64,000 nt of DNA from Dyadobacter chenhuakuii (lineage in GTDB: Bacteria; Bacteroidota; Bacteroidia; Cytophagales; Spirosomataceae): the NCBI RefSeq assembly GCF_023821985.2, contig NZ_CP098805.1, positions 1,178,001 through 1,242,000 of the forward strand, written 5' to 3'. The notes beneath the pieces were generated by a model that saw nothing but the letters and a program-made list of their open reading frames with translations, did not search any database and was not told the DNA's origin. Positions 19,031 through 27,331 of the stretch are shown one piece after another (within the stretch, counting starts at the first letter, position 1; every line of letters starts with the position of its first letter). A program made the position numbers and the translations under genes.

Positions 19031-22000
19031 ATGAAACAGCACTACAAAAAGGGCCTTTATCTCATATTATTTATGCTGTGGGCCGCGGCTTACATATTGA
19101 AAATGAGCGAGCTGGTAACAGGCACACATATCCCGGACCTTCCCACACAAATCAAAGCAAAGGATATCCCGGACCAAAGCAATGTCGTCCACGACAGCAC
19201 TGTCAGCAACATTCAGCAAAGCCTGGCCAAACGGGAATACAACATTTCTTTTGACGACGAAAAAAAATCGCTGCAAAGCCCAAACCGCAAGCAGGGCCTG
19301 CGCGCCTACTATAAGCCAGGCGAGCTGATGGTGAATAACCGCGTTGACTCGGCAGGCCATAACTTCTCTTTCAAACTCATCAATGAAGGGATTTACGCAG
19401 ACGGTCAAAAAATTCTAGGGCCGCAAACTGATGCAACGCTTCACCACGCAGATAACAAATTGCAGATCAGGCATCACGGCTTTACCGAAGAGTTCATAAA
19501 TAACGAGGAAGGCGTACGCCAGAACTTCATCGTCAGTTTCGCACCAAAAGCGACCATAGAACTTCAAGTAAGGCTATCCGCCAAAGGCTTAAAAGTCAAA
19601 GATCTTCAAAATAACCAGCTGCAATTTTACGCCGAAAACAAGAGAGGCGAGGTGGTCAGCAGTTTGATTTATAAAGATATTAAATGCTGGGATGCGAAAG
19701 GGGATACATTACCCGCAACATTAAGCTACAAAAATGGCCTGGTAATGCTGAGCGTAGCAGTGGAAGATGCCAGTTATCCGGTTACCATTGACCCGATTGT
19801 CGTGAACGGTAACCCAGCCAATGCCAATTCAGTGCTGGAAAGCAATCAGGCTGGTGCCCAGGCAGGCTATGCAGTTTCTTCTGCAGGAGATGTCAACGGG
19901 GACGGTTACAGCGATGTGATCGTAGGTGCGCCTTTCTTTGATAAGGGTGAAAGCAATGAAGGGGCTGCGTTTATTTACCATGGTTCGGCTTCGGGCATTG
20001 CATCGAGTGCTGCCATAACATTGGAAGGCAACCAGAACGAGGCCCAATTTGGCATAAGTGCAGCCTCTGCGGGCGACATTAACAAAGATGGGTTTAGTGA
20101 CATTATTATAGGCGCGCCCTTTTATAGCAAAGGCGAAAACAAAGAAGGCGTGGCGATGGTTTTTTACGGTTCAGCCCTAGGCATCAAAAGCAACGGGACT
20201 ATTATGGAAGTCAACCAGCCTGATGCGAAGTTTGGCAGGGCTGTGGAAGGGTTGGGTGATGTGAATGGAGATGGTTATAGTGACGTGATTGTCGGCGCCC
20301 CCATGTACGACAAAGGGCAGGCAGACGAAGGTGCAGGTTTCATTTATCACGGCTCGGCCGGCGGCATTGGCCTGGCAGCCGCTATGATTTTGGAAGCCGA
20401 CCAGGCCGGTGCTCAATATGGTTACAGCCTGGCAGGTGCAGGCGACGTTAACGGAGATGGTTATAATGATGTAATCATCGGTGCTTATGCCTATGACAAT
20501 GGTCAAACCAACGAAGGAGCTGCGTTTGTCTATCACGGATCGGCAATTGGTATTGCTAAAAACGCTGCTATCTTCTTCGAAAGCAACCAGATCAATGCGC
20601 AGTTTGGCTGGGCTGTGGCAACAGCCGGCGATGTGAACGGCGATGGTTACTCCGATATCATTATCGGCAGTTATCTCTATGATTATGGTCAGGCTAATGA
20701 AGGCGCGGCATTCATTTATCAAGGATCAGCCCAAGGCATTAAAACAGGGGCGATCAGGCTGGAAAGCAACCAGGCCGAAGCACGACTGGGCATTTCGGTC
20801 GCATGCGCAGGGGACGTCAACGGGGACGGTTATAGCGACATTATGATCGGCATTTGGCAATACGACAAAGGTGAAAGCAATGAAGGTGCAGTCGTGGTAC
20901 ACCATGGCTCTGCAAACGGAATCACCACCACAGCAGCATCGACACTCGAAAGCAACCAGGCTGATGCAGGGCTAGGGTGGGCAGCGAAGAGCGCTGGTGA
21001 TGTGAATGGGGACGGGTATAGCGATATTATTATCGGAGCGAATGGGTATGATAAGGGGCAGGCGGATGAGGGGGTGGCGTTTGTTTGGCTGGGGATGGCC
21101 GAGGGGGTAGCTGCCACCCCAATTTTGCTTGAAATGAACCAAGGTCATGCTTTGTTCGGCTGGTCAGTTTCTAATGCCGGAGATGTTAATGGAGACGGTT
21201 TTAGTGATATTATAATTGGGGCCGACGGATTTGACAATGGCCAAAGTGATGAAGGTGCAGCATTTATCTTTCACGGATCAACTACTGGAATAAATATAAA
21301 CGCCACCACTCAACTTGAAAGTAATAGAACCCATGCATTATTGGGGAAATCTGTATCGAGCGCTGGTGATATAAATGGAGATGGTTATGGAGATGTTATT
21401 GTTGGTGCAATTGGATATTCCAATGGTGAGGCATATGAAGGGGCAGCCTTTATATTTTATGGGTCAACTACGGGAATTGACAAAAATTCAGCCGTAATCT
21501 TAGAAAGTAACCAAGCAGACGCCTTAATGGGACGATCTGCTACAAGTGCTGGCGACGTAAATGGAGACGGTTATGGAGATGTGATTATAGGTGCTGAAGC
21601 ATTTGATAATTCTTTATTTAATGAAGGGGCTGCATTTGTTTATCATGGCTCAAAAAACGGAATAATTTCGCAATATCACATTCGCATGGAAAGCGATCAG
21701 GAAACGGCTTACATGGGATATTCAGTAGCAAGTGCTGGCGATGTCAATGGAGATGGGTATAGTGACGTACTCATTGGAATTCCTTGGTATACTAACGGGC
21801 AAATTAGAGAAGGTGTCGCTTATCTACATTATGGCTCAGCCAACGGCTTGACAGACTTAAACAAGGTATTGCTCGAAAGTGATCAAGATGAATCACAATT
21901 CGGCTGGTCTGTTTCAGGAGCTGGCGATGTGAATGGTGATGGGTTTGAAGACATAATAATCGGTTCGCCAACGGAAGTAAGCAAAGATAGAGTTCACATA

Positions 22001-23116
22001 TACTACGGCTCGGTAACCGGAGTCAGTCCTGCCAATCATTCTTCATTGAAAATTGCTGATGAAACGGCATTTTTCGGCGCTTGTGTAAGAAGTGCGGGTG
22101 ACATAAATGGCGATGGCTATACCGACATTATTATTGGAGCACCTCATTATACCGGAAGCATTCTCTATCAAGGAGCAGCTTTCATATTTTCCGGTAGTGT
22201 AAATGGAATACCTGACGGATCACTACCAAGCAATATATTAACAACTCCTCAATTACAAACGGCTAGCTTCACAGGGGAAGCTGTTTCAGGAGCCGGCGAC
22301 ATAAATGGTGACGGATACAGCGACATCATTTTAGGGTCCTATAAGTATTCTAATGGCTCAGCAGATGAAGGTATTGCTCTAACCTTTTACGGCAACTCCA
22401 ACAACAATCTCCAAAACAACCTCCGCCTCTACAACTCTGACCTCACAACCCCCATCAACCAATCCCAAAAAGCCAAAAACAACTTCGGAATTAGCCTTTA
22501 TGCAAAGTCTTTTCTTGGGAGGAGCAAGGGTAAGCTGGTTTGGGAGACAAAGGCTAAGGGCCAGGGGTTTTCTAAGGGGGCGAATAATGTGATTACGAAT
22601 AGCACAATGTCGTCGGGCTCTTGGATTGGTTATGCGAGTTTGGGGTTGACGGGGGTGGAGATGAAAAGTTTGATTGCCAAGCAAGGGACTTCAACCAAGG
22701 TGCGTGTGCGGGTGAAATATGATCCGGCGTTGGCGTTGACCGGCCAGCTTTATGGTCCGTGGCGCTATTTGCCTGCTTATCTTTTGGGTAACAGCGCTGC
22801 GCCGGTTCCGGAGAGCGTTGTGGATGATATGTCGGAGACGGTCAGGAGGAAGGTCGGCGAGACGATGGCGGAAAAGGAAGGAGAATTGGTTTACGTATAT
22901 CCTAATCCGGCATCTGATCGGTTGATGTTGAAGTCGGATGATTTTGATAAGATAAAAAGTATTCAAATGTTGACGGTCACGGGCCGGTCGGTTTATCGCT
23001 CTTCGGCTCCGTTTACGGAAATTGATGTCCGGAATTTTGCGGCGGGTAATTATATTTTATTGATCACCCATGCTGACGGTTCCGTGAGTACGCGTAAAGT
23101 AGTGATTGAAAAGTGA
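19031..23116 (+). CDS. FG-GAP repeat (integrin-alpha-like) double propeller protein, T9SS cargo, copy 1
   Basis: A 1361-residue surface or secreted protein. After an N-terminal hydrophobic segment comes a 268-residue N module ending in the YPVTIDPIV motif common ahead of FG-GAP arrays. Fourteen FG-GAP blades of about 60 residues follow, each with a calcium-loop pattern such as AGDVNGDGYSDVIVGAP. Fourteen blades would make two seven-bladed beta-propellers (269-699 and 700 to about 1120). A C module follows, and then a T9SS type A domain (VYPNPASDRL...GNYILLITHADG...RKVVIEK). Third-position base use becomes clearly more A/T-rich from blade 8 (about 21128) and returns in the C module. A likely role is adhesion or ligand binding. 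It is a tandem paralogue of the next gene. Confidence 0.9.
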   Translation: MKQHYKKGLYLILFMLWAAAYILKMSELVTGTHIPDLPTQIKAKDIPDQSNVVHDSTVSNIQQSLAKREYNISFDDEKKSLQSPNRKQGLRAYYKPGELMVNNRVDSAGHNFSFKLINEGIYADGQKILGPQTDATLHHADNKLQIRHHGFTEEFINNEEGVRQNFIVSFAPKATIELQVRLSAKGLKVKDLQNNQLQFYAENKRGEVVSSLIYKDIKCWDAKGDTLPATLSYKNGLVMLSVAVEDASYPVTIDPIVVNGNPANANSVLESNQAGAQAGYAVSSAGDVNGDGYSDVIVGAPFFDKGESNEGAAFIYHGSASGIASSAAITLEGNQNEAQFGISAASAGDINKDGFSDIIIGAPFYSKGENKEGVAMVFYGSALGIKSNGTIMEVNQPDAKFGRAVEGLGDVNGDGYSDVIVGAPMYDKGQADEGAGFIYHGSAGGIGLAAAMILEADQAGAQYGYSLAGAGDVNGDGYNDVIIGAYAYDNGQTNEGAAFVYHGSAIGIAKNAAIFFESNQINAQFGWAVATAGDVNGDGYSDIIIGSYLYDYGQANEGAAFIYQGSAQGIKTGAIRLESNQAEARLGISVACAGDVNGDGYSDIMIGIWQYDKGESNEGAVVVHHGSANGITTTAASTLESNQADAGLGWAAKSAGDVNGDGYSDIIIGANGYDKGQADEGVAFVWLGMAEGVAATPILLEMNQGHALFGWSVSNAGDVNGDGFSDIIIGADGFDNGQSDEGAAFIFHGSTTGININATTQLESNRTHALLGKSVSSAGDINGDGYGDVIVGAIGYSNGEAYEGAAFIFYGSTTGIDKNSAVILESNQADALMGRSATSAGDVNGDGYGDVIIGAEAFDNSLFNEGAAFVYHGSKNGIISQYHIRMESDQETAYMGYSVASAGDVNGDGYSDVLIGIPWYTNGQIREGVAYLHYGSANGLTDLNKVLLESDQDESQFGWSVSGAGDVNGDGFEDIIIGSPTEVSKDRVHIYYGSVTGVSPANHSSLKIADETAFFGACVRSAGDINGDGYTDIIIGAPHYTGSILYQGAAFIFSGSVNGIPDGSLPSNILTTPQLQTASFTGEAVSGAGDINGDGYSDIILGSYKYSNGSADEGIALTFYGNSNNNLQNNLRLYNSDLTTPINQSQKAKNNFGISLYAKSFLGRSKGKLVWETKAKGQGFSKGANNVITNSTMSSGSWIGYASLGLTGVEMKSLIAKQGTSTKVRVRVKYDPALALTGQLYGPWRYLPAYLLGNSAAPVPESVVDDMSETVRRKVGETMAEKEGELVYVYPNPASDRLMLKSDDFDKIKSIQMLTVTGRSVYRSSAPFTEIDVRNFAAGNYILLITHADGSVSTRKVVIEK

Positions 23117-23227
23117 TGTATATCTTAGTGAATAGCCATACATGGTTTTTATTTTTTTACGCCTGCCCTTGAGAACAGGATATGTACTGTCTACTACAAA
23201 TTTTTTAAAAACACGAAAACTCAGAAT

Positions 23228-26200
23228 ATGAAACAGCACTACAAAAAAGGCCTTTATTTCGTTTTATTCTCAATGTTGGTAATCGCTTATATATTAAACA
23301 CACAGCGGCTAACATTGAGCAAAAGCGTTTCATATATAACTAAAATGGTTAGGCTGAATGAATATCAACAACAAAGCAGTGTCGTCCACGACAGCACCGT
23401 CAGCAACATTCAGCAAAGCCTGGCCAAACGGGAATACAACATTTCTTTTGACGACGAAAAAAAATCGCTGCAAAGCCCGAACCGCAAGCAGGGCCTGCGC
23501 GCCTACTATAAACCCGGCGAGCTGACGGTGAACAACCGCGTTGACTCGGCAGGTCATAACTTCTCCTTCAAACTCATCAACGAAGGCATTTACGCAGACG
23601 GTCAAAAAATTCTAGGGCCTCAAACTGATGCAGCACTTCACCACGCAGATAACAAATTGCAGATCAGGCACCGCGGCTTTACCGAAGAGTTCATAAACAA
23701 CGAGGAAGGCGTACGCCAGAACTTCATCATCAGTTCCGCACCAAAAGCGACCAGAGAACTTCAAGTAAGGCTATCCGCCAAAGGCCTAAAAGTCAAAGAT
23801 CTTCAAAATAACCAGCTGCAATTTTATGCTGAAAATAAGAGAGGCGAGTTGGTCAGAAGTTTGATTTATAAAGATATTAAATGCTGGGATGCGAAAGGGG
23901 ATACATTACCCGCAACATTAAGCTACAAAAATGGCCTGGTAATGCTGAGCGTAGCAGTAGAGGATGCCACTTATCCGGTCACCATTGACCCGATTGTGAT
24001 CAATGGGAATCCAGCGAATGCCAGTGCCGCATTCGAAAGCAACCAGACTAGCGCGTGGATGGGCTATGCCGTTTCAAGCGCAGGGGATATAAACAGCGAC
24101 GGGTACAGCGACTTACTGGTTGGGGCGCCGATGTTTGACAAAGGCCATACAAACGAAGGCGTTGTATTTGTTTATCATGGTTCAGCAAGCGGCCCAATTC
24201 TGAACCCGGTGTTGATCCTGGAAGGCAACCAGAACGAAGCGCAATATGGCTATGCCGTCTCCACTGCCGGCGATGTGAACAAGGACGGTTACAGCGACAT
24301 CATAATCGGCGCCCGTTTCTATGACAAGGGGCAAACCAATGAAGGTGCGGCCTTTGTCTACCACGGCTCAGCCAATGGCATCGTCGTAAATGCAACTGTT
24401 TTGCAAAGCAATCAGGCCGATGCCAATTTTGGAAAGTCGGTATCGCTTGCTGGTGATGTTAATGCGGACGGTTACAGCGACCTGTTAGTGGGAGCGCCAT
24501 TATTCGAAAGCGGAGGACAAGCAGATGAAGGTGCTGCTTTTATCTTTCACGGCTCGGCGAGCGGCATAAACCCAATCGCAGCCATTACCCTGGAAGGCAA
24601 CCAAGCCAGCGGGCAGTTTGGCCATGCAACGGCTGGGGCCGGGGATATAAATGGAGATGGATACAGTGACATCGTCATCGGCGCTTATGCCTATGATAAA
24701 GGCCAGACAAACGAAGGGGTTGCATTTATCTATCACGGCTCGGCCCTTGGCATTAGCAACAATGCAAATACAATTTTAGAAGGCAACCAGGCCAACGCCC
24801 AATTCGGCATATCGGTCTCGGGCGCCGGAGACATCAATGGCGACGGTTACAGCGATCTGGTAGTCGGGGCAAGTGCTTATGACAAAAATTTTGGCGATGA
24901 GGGCGCTGCTTTCATTTATAAAGGTTCAGCCAATGGCGTCATTACCGCTCCTGCATCTATCATTTACTCCAACCAAGGAGCTGCCCAACTCGGCGCGGCC
25001 GTTGCCAATGCCGGGGACGTAAATGGCGATGGTTTTAGCGACCTGCTATTAACAGCATCAAGATATGATAAAGGCCAAACCAATGAAGGCGTCGTCTTTC
25101 TGCACCTGGGTTCACCAACAGGAATCCAAAACACACCCACCAGCACTTTCGAAGGCGACCAAGCCGAAGCCTTCCTGGGAAGCGCCACCGGAGTAGCCAG
25201 CGCCGGTGACGTAAATGGCGACGGATACAGCGACATTGTCATTGGGGCGTATAGCTTTGATAAGGGGCAAGTGGATGAAGGGGCGGCGTTTGTTTGGATG
25301 GGGATGGCAAGTGGGGTTCCGAATGTTGCTGCTCTTGAATTAAAAGCTATTCAAAAAGATGCCTTGTTTGGATCCTCTGTTGCTTCCGCAGGCGATTTGA
25401 ATGGAGATGGGTTTGATGATATAGTTATCGGAGCAAGCGCATATGATAACGGCCAGGATCGTGAAGGTGTCGCTTTCATTTACTATGGATCGCCATCCGG
25501 CCCAAATCCGGTTCCGGTTATGTTAGAGGTTAATAAAGAGGGCGCTTGTTTTGGCGGTTCCGTGTCGAGTGCCGGCGATGTGAATGGTGATGGCTTCGAT
25601 GATGTGATTATAGGTGCCGATTTCTATGATAAGGTTCAGGAAGATGTTGGAGCTTTCTTTGTATTCCATGGGTCTTCGAAAGGAATAAGCAATGTACCAA
25701 ATTTTCAATATTTTGGCTTACAAGAAGAGGAGTGGTTGGGCTATTCTGTTTCTGGTGCAGGAGACATAAATGGTGACGGCTTCGCCGATGTAGTTATTGG
25801 GGCCTTTGGCGCCGACGTGGGAGACTTCGACCACGGCTACGAAGGTCGATTTTTGGTTTTTTACGGTTCTCAGAATGGAATTATACAAATCCCTACAAGA
25901 ATCGATGGGGTTGACAATGGAATGCATTTTGGAAGTTCACTAAGTAGCGCAGGTGATATAAATGGTGATGGATTTTCAGATATTGTAGTAGGTAACCCCC
26001 ATTATTATGACGGTGAGGAGAATGAAGGCGCAGTTTATGTTTATACAGGTTCTATAACCGGTCTAAATCCTACACCGTCTATTTTACAAGGCAATGTAGC
26101 GTTGGCTGAAATTGGAACCTCCGTCTCATCTGCAGGCGATGTAAATGGAGATGGTTACGGCGACATCATTGCTGGAGCGAGATATTTTACAAACGGACAG

Positions 26201-27331
26201 ACTAATGAAGGGGCAGCTTTTCTATATTACGGATCTATTAGTGGGATCGCCAACAAACAACCTGTTATATTAGAGAGTAATAAAATAAATGGATATATGG
26301 GCTATGATGTCGGTGCAGCCGGAGATATTAATGGCGATGGTTATGGAGATATTATTGTTGGAGCTCCCGCCGACGAAACTTCTAATGGCAATGTGTTTAT
26401 TTACTACGGATCAAGTTCTGGAATTTTGCCAGGTTCTACCCAAAACTGCAATTTAAAAGATCCATCTGGTATGCTCGGCAGTTATTTCGGCTTAAGGACA
26501 GCGGGCGCAGGCGATATCAATGGTGATGGTTATGCTGATGTACTCATTGGTGCTCTTGATTGGAACAATGGTCAAAATACTGAGGCAAGCGTATTTCAAT
26601 ACAATGGCAACTCCAACAAAAACCTCCAAAACAACCTCCGCCTCTACAACTCCGACCTCACAACCCCTATCAACCAATCCCAAAAAGCCAAAAACAACTT
26701 TGGAATTAGCCTTTATGCAAAGTCTTTTCTTGGGAGGAGCAAGGGTAAGCTGGTTTGGGAGACAAAGGCTAAGGGCCAGGGGTTTTCTAAGGGGGCTAAT
26801 AATGTGATTACGAATAGCACAATGTCCTCGGGCTCTTGGATTGGTTATGCGAGTTTGGGGTTGACGGGGGTTGAGATGAAAAGTGTGATTGGAAAGCAAG
26901 GGACTTCAACCAAGGTGCGTGTGCGGGTGAAATATGATCCGGCGTTGGCATTAACCGGCCAGCTGTATGGTCCGTGGCGTTATTTGCCTGCTTACCTTTT
27001 GGGTAACAGCGCTGCGCCGGTTCCGGAGAATGTTGTGGATGATATGTCGGAGACGGTCAGGAGGAAGGTCGGGGAGACGATGGCGGAAAAGGAGGGAGAA
27101 TTAGTCAACGTATATCCTAATCCAGCATCTGATCGGTTAATGTTAAAGTCGGATGATTTTGATAAGATAAAAAGTACTCAAATGTTGACGGTCACGGGCC
27201 GGTCGGTTTATCGCTCGTTGGCTCCGGTTACGGAAATTGATGTCCGGAATTTTGCGGCGGGTAATTATATTTTATTGATCACCCATGCTGACGGTTCCGT
27301 GAGTACGCGTAAAGTAGTAATTGAAAAATAA
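23228..27331 (+). CDS. FG-GAP repeat double propeller protein, T9SS cargo, copy 2
   Basis: A 1367-residue tandem paralogue of the gene at 19031, 111 bases downstream. The N module from VVHDSTVSNIQQSLAKR to YPVTIDPIV and the C module from about 26607 to the stop are nearly identical to copy 1 in DNA. The first 40 or so residues and all 14 blades differ. The second propeller starts at residue 703 (nt 25334), where codon use again turns A/T-rich. The blades keep DxNGDGxxD calcium loops; blade 1 has SDG and blade 3 has ADG variants. The T9SS type A sorting domain is intact. It may be co-transcribed with copy 1, since no terminator is obvious between them. A hairpin follows the stop. Confidence 0.9.
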   Translation: MKQHYKKGLYFVLFSMLVIAYILNTQRLTLSKSVSYITKMVRLNEYQQQSSVVHDSTVSNIQQSLAKREYNISFDDEKKSLQSPNRKQGLRAYYKPGELTVNNRVDSAGHNFSFKLINEGIYADGQKILGPQTDAALHHADNKLQIRHRGFTEEFINNEEGVRQNFIISSAPKATRELQVRLSAKGLKVKDLQNNQLQFYAENKRGELVRSLIYKDIKCWDAKGDTLPATLSYKNGLVMLSVAVEDATYPVTIDPIVINGNPANASAAFESNQTSAWMGYAVSSAGDINSDGYSDLLVGAPMFDKGHTNEGVVFVYHGSASGPILNPVLILEGNQNEAQYGYAVSTAGDVNKDGYSDIIIGARFYDKGQTNEGAAFVYHGSANGIVVNATVLQSNQADANFGKSVSLAGDVNADGYSDLLVGAPLFESGGQADEGAAFIFHGSASGINPIAAITLEGNQASGQFGHATAGAGDINGDGYSDIVIGAYAYDKGQTNEGVAFIYHGSALGISNNANTILEGNQANAQFGISVSGAGDINGDGYSDLVVGASAYDKNFGDEGAAFIYKGSANGVITAPASIIYSNQGAAQLGAAVANAGDVNGDGFSDLLLTASRYDKGQTNEGVVFLHLGSPTGIQNTPTSTFEGDQAEAFLGSATGVASAGDVNGDGYSDIVIGAYSFDKGQVDEGAAFVWMGMASGVPNVAALELKAIQKDALFGSSVASAGDLNGDGFDDIVIGASAYDNGQDREGVAFIYYGSPSGPNPVPVMLEVNKEGACFGGSVSSAGDVNGDGFDDVIIGADFYDKVQEDVGAFFVFHGSSKGISNVPNFQYFGLQEEEWLGYSVSGAGDINGDGFADVVIGAFGADVGDFDHGYEGRFLVFYGSQNGIIQIPTRIDGVDNGMHFGSSLSSAGDINGDGFSDIVVGNPHYYDGEENEGAVYVYTGSITGLNPTPSILQGNVALAEIGTSVSSAGDVNGDGYGDIIAGARYFTNGQTNEGAAFLYYGSISGIANKQPVILESNKINGYMGYDVGAAGDINGDGYGDIIVGAPADETSNGNVFIYYGSSSGILPGSTQNCNLKDPSGMLGSYFGLRTAGAGDINGDGYADVLIGALDWNNGQNTEASVFQYNGNSNKNLQNNLRLYNSDLTTPINQSQKAKNNFGISLYAKSFLGRSKGKLVWETKAKGQGFSKGANNVITNSTMSSGSWIGYASLGLTGVEMKSVIGKQGTSTKVRVRVKYDPALALTGQLYGPWRYLPAYLLGNSAAPVPENVVDDMSETVRRKVGETMAEKEGELVNVYPNPASDRLMLKSDDFDKIKSTQMLTVTGRSVYRSLAPVTEIDVRNFAAGNYILLITHADGSVSTRKVVIEK

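Follow-up and report, generated by a model that had tools for sequence, protein, structure and literature searches.

Evidence that whole integrin-type propellers are exchanged between constant ends in a family of predicted Dyadobacter surface proteins

A 64,000-nucleotide (nt) stretch of the Dyadobacter chenhuakuii genome (contig NZ_CP098805.1, positions 1,178,001 to 1,242,000; hereafter the window, numbered from its first nucleotide) carries two tandem genes, A (19031..23116, 1361 amino acids (aa)) and B (23228..27331, 1367 aa), which lie on the plus strand with a spacer of 111 nt and were delimited by their open reading frames (ORFs), Pfam domains and synteny. Pfam recognizes 14 FG-GAP stretches (PF01839) in each product, with 354.9 bits for A (E = 7.4e-109) and 357.7 bits for B (E = 9.6e-110) against a gathering cut-off of 22.1, and a C-terminal sorting domain of the type IX secretion system (T9SS; PF18962, Por_Secre_tail, cut-off 27) at residues 1289–1359 of A (37.4 bits, E = 3.2e-9) and 1295–1365 of B (31.3 bits, E = 2.6e-7). 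ORFs and Pfam confirm the common plan that a first-pass annotation, made from the letters alone, had read in both genes: an N module, 14 FG-GAP blades and a C module with a T9SS tail. From these domains, A and B are predicted T9SS cargo that would be exported and displayed at the cell surface. The host genome is 6.08 Mb long, lies in two contigs and is 99.8% complete.

Each gene falls into five parts. A leader or signal region of 50 codons (19031..19180 in A, 23228..23377 in B) is followed by the N module (codons 51–262; 19181..19816 and 23378..24013), propeller 1 (P1, blades 1–7; 19817..21118 and 24014..25307), propeller 2 (P2, blades 8–14; 21119..22414 and 25308..26622) and the C module, which includes the tail (22415..23116 and 26623..27331). 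DNA identity between A and B is 0.56 in the leader, 0.94 in the N module, 0.59–0.69 in blades 1–7, 0.48–0.59 in blades 8–14 and 0.96 in the C module, with a second fall at blade 8, and the profile in 60-nt windows likewise shows a divergence that is not uniform along the gene. Synonymous divergence (dS) is 0.20 in the N module, 0.16 in the C module and 2.76 in P1, and is saturated in P2. The earlier description of near-identical ends around divergent blades stands, with the addition that the first 50 codons also differ.

The G+C content of third codon positions (GC3) steps down at blade 8 in both copies, as had been proposed, from 0.59 in blade 7 to 0.29 in A and from 0.59 to 0.31 in B. Per blade, it ranges over 0.37–0.59 in blades 1–7 and 0.21–0.40 in blades 8–14 of A, the sole overlap being blade 4 at 0.37, and over 0.43–0.67 and 0.21–0.42 in B; the values for the complete P2 are 0.31 (A) and 0.33 (B). 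Among 95 full-length relatives, family means are 0.50–0.54 for each of blades 1–7 and 0.42–0.46 for each of blades 8–14, and P2 has the lower GC3 in 69 genes but not in the other 26 (Wilcoxon p = 3e-10, with rows that are kin by descent). An AT-richer pool of second propellers agrees with frequent import; composition by itself is no proof of it.

Structure prediction was consistent with two seven-bladed propellers per protein, as the first reading had it, giving a complete propeller in both places searched, P1 of B and P2 of A. The model of B codons 51–1134 (predicted local distance difference test score (pLDDT) 85.7, predicted template modelling score (pTM) 0.55) consists of a strand-rich N module and a long run of propeller strands, with a relative placement of domains that is unsure because of the pTM of 0.55; of the four stretches predicted with low confidence, the one at model residues 645–650 is the linker between blades 7 and 8. 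P1 of B (model residues 211–648) matches integrin alpha propellers with VIA Z scores of up to 44.1 and a root-mean-square deviation (rmsd) of 2.1–2.6 over 383–386 residues; for 4wk0_A, aligned to model residues 212–646, Z is 43.9 and the rmsd 2.1 over 383 residues. In the model of A codons 690–1361 (pLDDT 79.1, pTM 0.77), P2 (model residues 2–435) matches the same propellers (Z 42.5, rmsd 2.3, 383 residues aligned), and the C module, which has low confidence around residues 440–600, could be given no fold. Integrin propellers filled the VIA-align and Foldseek match lists, so that the fold of the N module was barely probed. Judged by these models, both tested places hold a seven-bladed propeller of the integrin alpha type, and the fold is all that A and B have in common with metazoan integrins. 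Bacterial proteins with tandem seven-bladed integrin-type FG-GAP propellers have been described (PMC3192720); they resemble A and B in that a single protein carries FG-GAP repeats in two groups of seven, and the portion of that account considered here speaks neither of propeller exchange nor of T9SS.

Comparison with Dyadobacter alkalitolerans (G051) separates P2 of B from the rest of the gene. In this species at least three copies stand in a syntenic array that an assembly gap interrupts, and contig C9 ends in an extra, truncated gene; by position, leader, N module and P1, array gene 3 is the ortholog of B. Nucleotide identity and dS between the two are 0.89 and 0.16 in the leader, 0.92 and 0.34 in the N module, 0.91 and 0.27 in P1, and 0.91 and 0.37 in the C module; in P2 identity is 0.53 and dS is saturated. 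The similarity breaks off at 25308, within the codons that encode the last part of blade 7; it returns at 26623, where the C module starts, and from there to 36334 the DNA is 94.7% identical to that of D. alkalitolerans. Because dS is 0.16–0.37 outside P2 and saturated inside it, P2 of B appears to be a replacement and not the product of fast mutation; dS would stay level under fast protein evolution, so replacement fits the contrast. Accelerated point mutation of P2 under positive selection, without DNA import, would account for P2 being the most variable part of the protein (38 clusters against 3 for P1 at 60% aa identity, and 53 against 19 at 70%, among 73 genes of 1300–1420 aa). We nevertheless regard it as highly improbable, in view of the synonymous saturation confined to P2, the abrupt edge of the divergence and a P2 shared by G130_C67 and G145_C12 that has a nonsynonymous divergence of 0.03 against a dS of 0.28. 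P1 has probably been exchanged as well, because the truncated gene on contig C9 joins an A-type leader (0.96 nt identity) to a B-type P1 (0.92).

Trees of the separate modules give different histories for the ends and the propellers. The N tree places A and B as sisters (support 96/87), against two D. alkalitolerans copies, and so does the C tree (100/99), against three. In the P1 tree, two D. alkalitolerans copies join B (100/100), and A falls not with B but with G087, G154 and G160 (100/99); in the P2 tree, A groups with G130_C28 (99/98), its nearest relative at 55% aa identity, and B with G125_C7 (100/99), its nearest at 64%. A clade of A and B is rejected for P1 (approximately unbiased test, p-AU = 1e-8) and for P2 (p-AU = 3e-87), as is a single P2 clade of the three D. 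alkalitolerans copies (p-AU = 1e-5). The N and P1 trees include one partial row, the contig C9 gene, entered by length-keeping addition and placed in agreement with its identities. Since A pairs with B in both end modules but in neither propeller, we infer conversion at the ends and exchange between them; on these trees, the genome keeps its two N modules alike, and likewise its two C modules.

The first-pass annotation had offered two explanations, cassettes exchanged between constant ends or ends held alike by gene conversion, and both are supported, each for different parts of the gene. Conversion is indicated by the sister position of A and B in the N and C trees although P1 of B groups with D. 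alkalitolerans; exchange is supported by islands of divergent P2 in orthologs, by incongruent P1 and P2 trees, and by an interspecies transfer and a chimera described below. For the window alone, an old duplication would suffice, in which A and B diverged in the ordinary way, gene conversion touched only the ends and no propeller was exchanged: the two are sisters in the N and C trees and different everywhere between. That account fails for B and its D. alkalitolerans ortholog, with dS of 0.16–0.34 from leader to P1 and a saturated P2, and for the like pattern of G154, with one copy at the cut-off used, and the G160 gene in the same flanks (P1 identity 0.93, P2 0.46); we consider it very unlikely.

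The same pattern recurs across the genus. A search of 48 Dyadobacter genomes found the C module in 31 (E of 1e-30 or better); 111 ORFs were kept, and the 95 of 1200–1500 aa were aligned, with broken and partial ORFs and one of 1895 aa excluded from pair counts (two listed places, G193:C4 and G205:C10, stand outside the family set). P1 is at least 0.85 identical at the aa level in 21 of the 4465 pairs. In 16 of these 21, P2 identity is at most 0.60 (0.40–0.57), in one it is 0.69 and in four at least 0.75; the 16 low-P2 pairs draw on 18 genomes, and when each gene is used once, 11 of 14 pairs have P2 at or below 0.60. Five of the 21 are pairs within one genome, all with P2 at 0.40–0.57. A fit with two free change points to 21 hand-picked pairs placed a border at residues 664–705 of the first-named protein, near the end of blade 7, in 12; the remaining nine either begin to diverge at P1 (A/B and A/G051), lack a swap of this kind, or are dominated by deletions or by a stretch conserved elsewhere. 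When P2 of B is compared with that of G125_C7, the best pairing for six of seven blades is the blade in the same position, which favours the whole propeller as the unit. Blade-by-blade shuffling as the main unit is disfavoured by this comparison but not by that of A with G130_C28, in which only three of seven blades pair best in their own position.

The family is centred on Dyadobacter, judging by the low identity of the matches outside the genus. In 291 genomes of the order (E = 1e-8), the C module without its tail is found in 14, 4 of them outside the genus, and the N module in 17, 7 of them outside; the outside matches are 40–54% (C) and 28–41% (N) identical. Named loci that encode a C-module relative belong to Dyadobacter in 51 of 52 cases, the other being a Chitinophagales metagenome-assembled genome. 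Arrays of five or six family genes occur in G166, G210, G207 and G204 (L057, L058, L107, L108, L116, L117, L133 and L134), with broken ORFs among the members in G210 and G204. A sister subfamily (L139–L157, about 1420–1440 aa) has the same FG-GAP repeats, matches the C module only over its first 125–150 residues and in several members carries another tail at its end.

Three comparisons point to where new propellers may come from. First, genes of Dyadobacter jiangsuensis and Dyadobacter fermentans share a P2 that is 98% identical in DNA (dS 0.03), with dS of 1.24 in the N module, 1.52 in P1 and 0.25 in the C module and a downstream flank at 0.79–0.96 nt identity per 300-nt window; from the sequences, one interspecies exchange looks recent, and it is the one clear case in which dS of P2 lies far below the species baseline. 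The D. fermentans gene (L105, G172:C35:93642) is without about 124 codons at the junction of blades 7 and 8, beside the near-identical shared P2, a gap that is possibly a scar of exchange. Second, the D. jiangsuensis gene G202_C11_168318 is a chimera whose N module and P1 start are like G207_170682 and whose P2 and C module are like G207_157819, which identifies array neighbours as a source of new propellers as far as sequence comparison can. Third, for unlinked paralogs of one genome, two loci of Dyadobacter sp. CY347 (G125) without common flanks have P1 at 0.97 and P2 at 0.45; their N module and P1 are 94.5% identical in DNA, blastn homology halts at the end of P1, and it returns over 438 nt where the C module begins. 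New propellers made by amplifying one blade, a route of propeller formation that forms a subject of PMC9218822, were also considered; blades within P2 are at most 61% (A) and 54% (B) alike, so no recent amplification is indicated.

These data also bear on the possibility that P1 and P2 types are ancient alleles, older than the species, and were sorted by loss and occasional recombination with little new exchange. Types do cross species borders, P2 of B grouping with G125_C7 and P1 of A with G087, G154 and G160, and many types are held in arrays of up to six genes. Recombination is required regardless, because modules of one gene differ in history, and, with a dS of 0.03, the P2 that D. jiangsuensis has in common with D. 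fermentans looks recent. As this account overlaps with repeated propeller replacement and differs from it mainly in age and rate, we give it a serious but clearly minor share of the probability.

A programmed system, be it a diversity-generating retroelement, an invertible element or a silent-cassette store, finds some encouragement in a layout like that of known cassette systems and in two reverse-transcriptase matches, both elsewhere in the genome than the window (G000:C1:4209955-4210419 and 1353341-1353727). However, the differences span a whole propeller of about 1.3 kb; the 19 inverted-repeat pairs at the locus (16–35 nt, 70–88% complementary) are all short and imperfect; and the genome is without a propeller store of its own, since at E = 1e-5 all nine matches to P2 of A and all 12 to P2 of B fall in A or B. 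Other FG-GAP proteins of the genome give no match to either P2 at that threshold. The ten neighbouring genes scanned with Pfam include no recombinase family, and a search among them for a functional partner returned ordinary families only: acetyltransferase, rhodanese, AraC regulator, pyridoxamine oxidase-like, GntR/aminotransferase, MFS transporter, TonB receptor, E1-E2 ATPase, radical SAM and thioredoxin-like. Programmed variation is in our judgement most improbable. Collapsed repeats in the assembly could in principle mimic the pattern, and a gap and contig ends do interrupt the D. alkalitolerans array, but the A/B pair is internal to a single contig in an assembly of two, and the pattern returns in G154 (2 contigs) against G160 (1 contig); such an artefact has a negligible chance of being the cause.

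Together, these results lead us to put at roughly 85% the probability that whole propellers, chiefly the second, have been replaced as units between constant ends that are kept alike by conversion. Several observations weigh against this reading or narrow it. A similar P2 is retained in four of the 21 P1-similar pairs, and the change-point pairs were partly picked for high P1 and low P2. Nine pairs were fitted with a low-identity segment that begins at blade 7, and in one of them (G125) the right edge falls well within the C module, at residue 1342, because the tail differs too. With only three of seven P2 blades of A pairing in position with G130_C28, smaller units or deep divergence would also play a part. 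The N module and P1 of D. jiangsuensis and D. fermentans diverge more than their flank, so that several exchanges, or exchange of N and P1 rather than of P2 alone, are possible. The donor is itself only deduced, because the genome has no P2 match outside A and B; the exchange evidence comes from comparisons between species and within genomes; and ligand binding, surface location and T9SS export are read from domains.

The comparisons show a whole propeller as the usual unit of replacement. Within a plan of leader, N module, two seven-bladed propellers, C module and T9SS tail, DNA for another P2, or less often another P1, has displaced the resident one, with edges near the linker between blades 7 and 8 and near the point where the C module begins; the two end modules, by contrast, are homogenized within one genome. 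The agent would probably be homologous recombination (gene conversion) anchored in the conserved end of blade 7, the N module and the C module, and its partners may be array neighbours, distant paralogs of the same genome, or DNA of other strains or species. Judging by fold and variability, P2 may be an outward recognition domain of the adhesin or lectin type, whose diversity would be driven by change in its ligand or attacker.

The border between P2 and the C module is also marked in the DNA. On the coding strand a C-rich, G-poor tract crosses it at 22394..22489 in A and 26609..26704 in B; the poorest 75-nt window at the start of the C module has two G in either gene, against a gene mean of 20, and 52 of 95 genes have their G-poorest window of this size centred at that point. 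The encoded amino acids account for part of this poverty. When sequences were resampled with each gene's own codons, G4Hunter was more than two standard deviations negative at the C start in 37 of 95 genes. Of nine other segments, seven gave 0–5 such genes out of 94–95, and the two where the N module begins gave 16 and 7 out of 94, the rows behind all these counts again being kin; the skew at the blade-7 border is opposite. A second C-rich stretch opens the other constant module: at codons 61–105 of A (19211–19345), two-fold codons end in C at a mean of 0.67 against 0.44 in P1, and this bias exceeds that of the rest of the N module in 81 of 94 genes. The tract at the P2/C border is possibly an element of the recombination border, a lead without a mechanism and a correlate only. 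A genus-wide, DNA-marked exchange, in which a C-rich tract kept by codon choice promotes recombination and cells import the propellers of other strains into a fixed export frame for phage or kin recognition, is a speculative extension that we hold to be unlikely.

Partial parallels exist in other bacteria. The BabA and BabB proteins of Helicobacter pylori have constant ends with an exchanged middle, and gene conversion between their loci yields chimeras (PMC4552749). Constant ends, a divergent middle and paralog chimeras are all found in the A/B family as well; the phase-variable CT repeats are, in what that source covers, a BabA/BabB feature. BabA and BabB differ from the A/B family in fold and export route. 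Furthermore, what is exchanged in the A/B family is an entire propeller, the histories of the two propellers are separate, and one of the exchanges took place between species. The specificity subunit of Type I restriction enzymes, whose target recognition domains are exchanged (PMC3077401), shares two variable recognition domains and constant repeats, with recombination in the repeats and also between loci; as that source presents it, it is unlike A and B in being part of a restriction enzyme, and its domains switch between positions 1 and 2. The pilin gene pilE of Neisseria (PMC3547852, PMC10094033) likewise encodes a surface protein varied by gene conversion and has a guanine-rich DNA element near it, which the C-rich tract recalls only as a correlate; on the same partial accounts it draws on many silent donor copies, of which none was found at E = 1e-5 in the genome of A and B. 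In the open-licence literature we found nothing on this family or on propeller exchange, nor any account of a T9SS-tailed protein in which integrin-type propellers are exchanged whole throughout a genus.

Adhesins whose middles undergo gene conversion are known chiefly in pathogens that face immune attack. Dyadobacter is mostly an environmental genus, and it would do likewise with complete beta-propellers, the edges of the modules coinciding with the edges of the fold. The family would thereby offer a natural experiment on which propeller surfaces set binding, a resource of 95 full-length proteins for a propeller-grafting study, and a marker locus for DNA exchange among Dyadobacter species. 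If P2 is indeed a phage receptor or kin-recognition surface, the selective cause of its diversity would be open to direct test.

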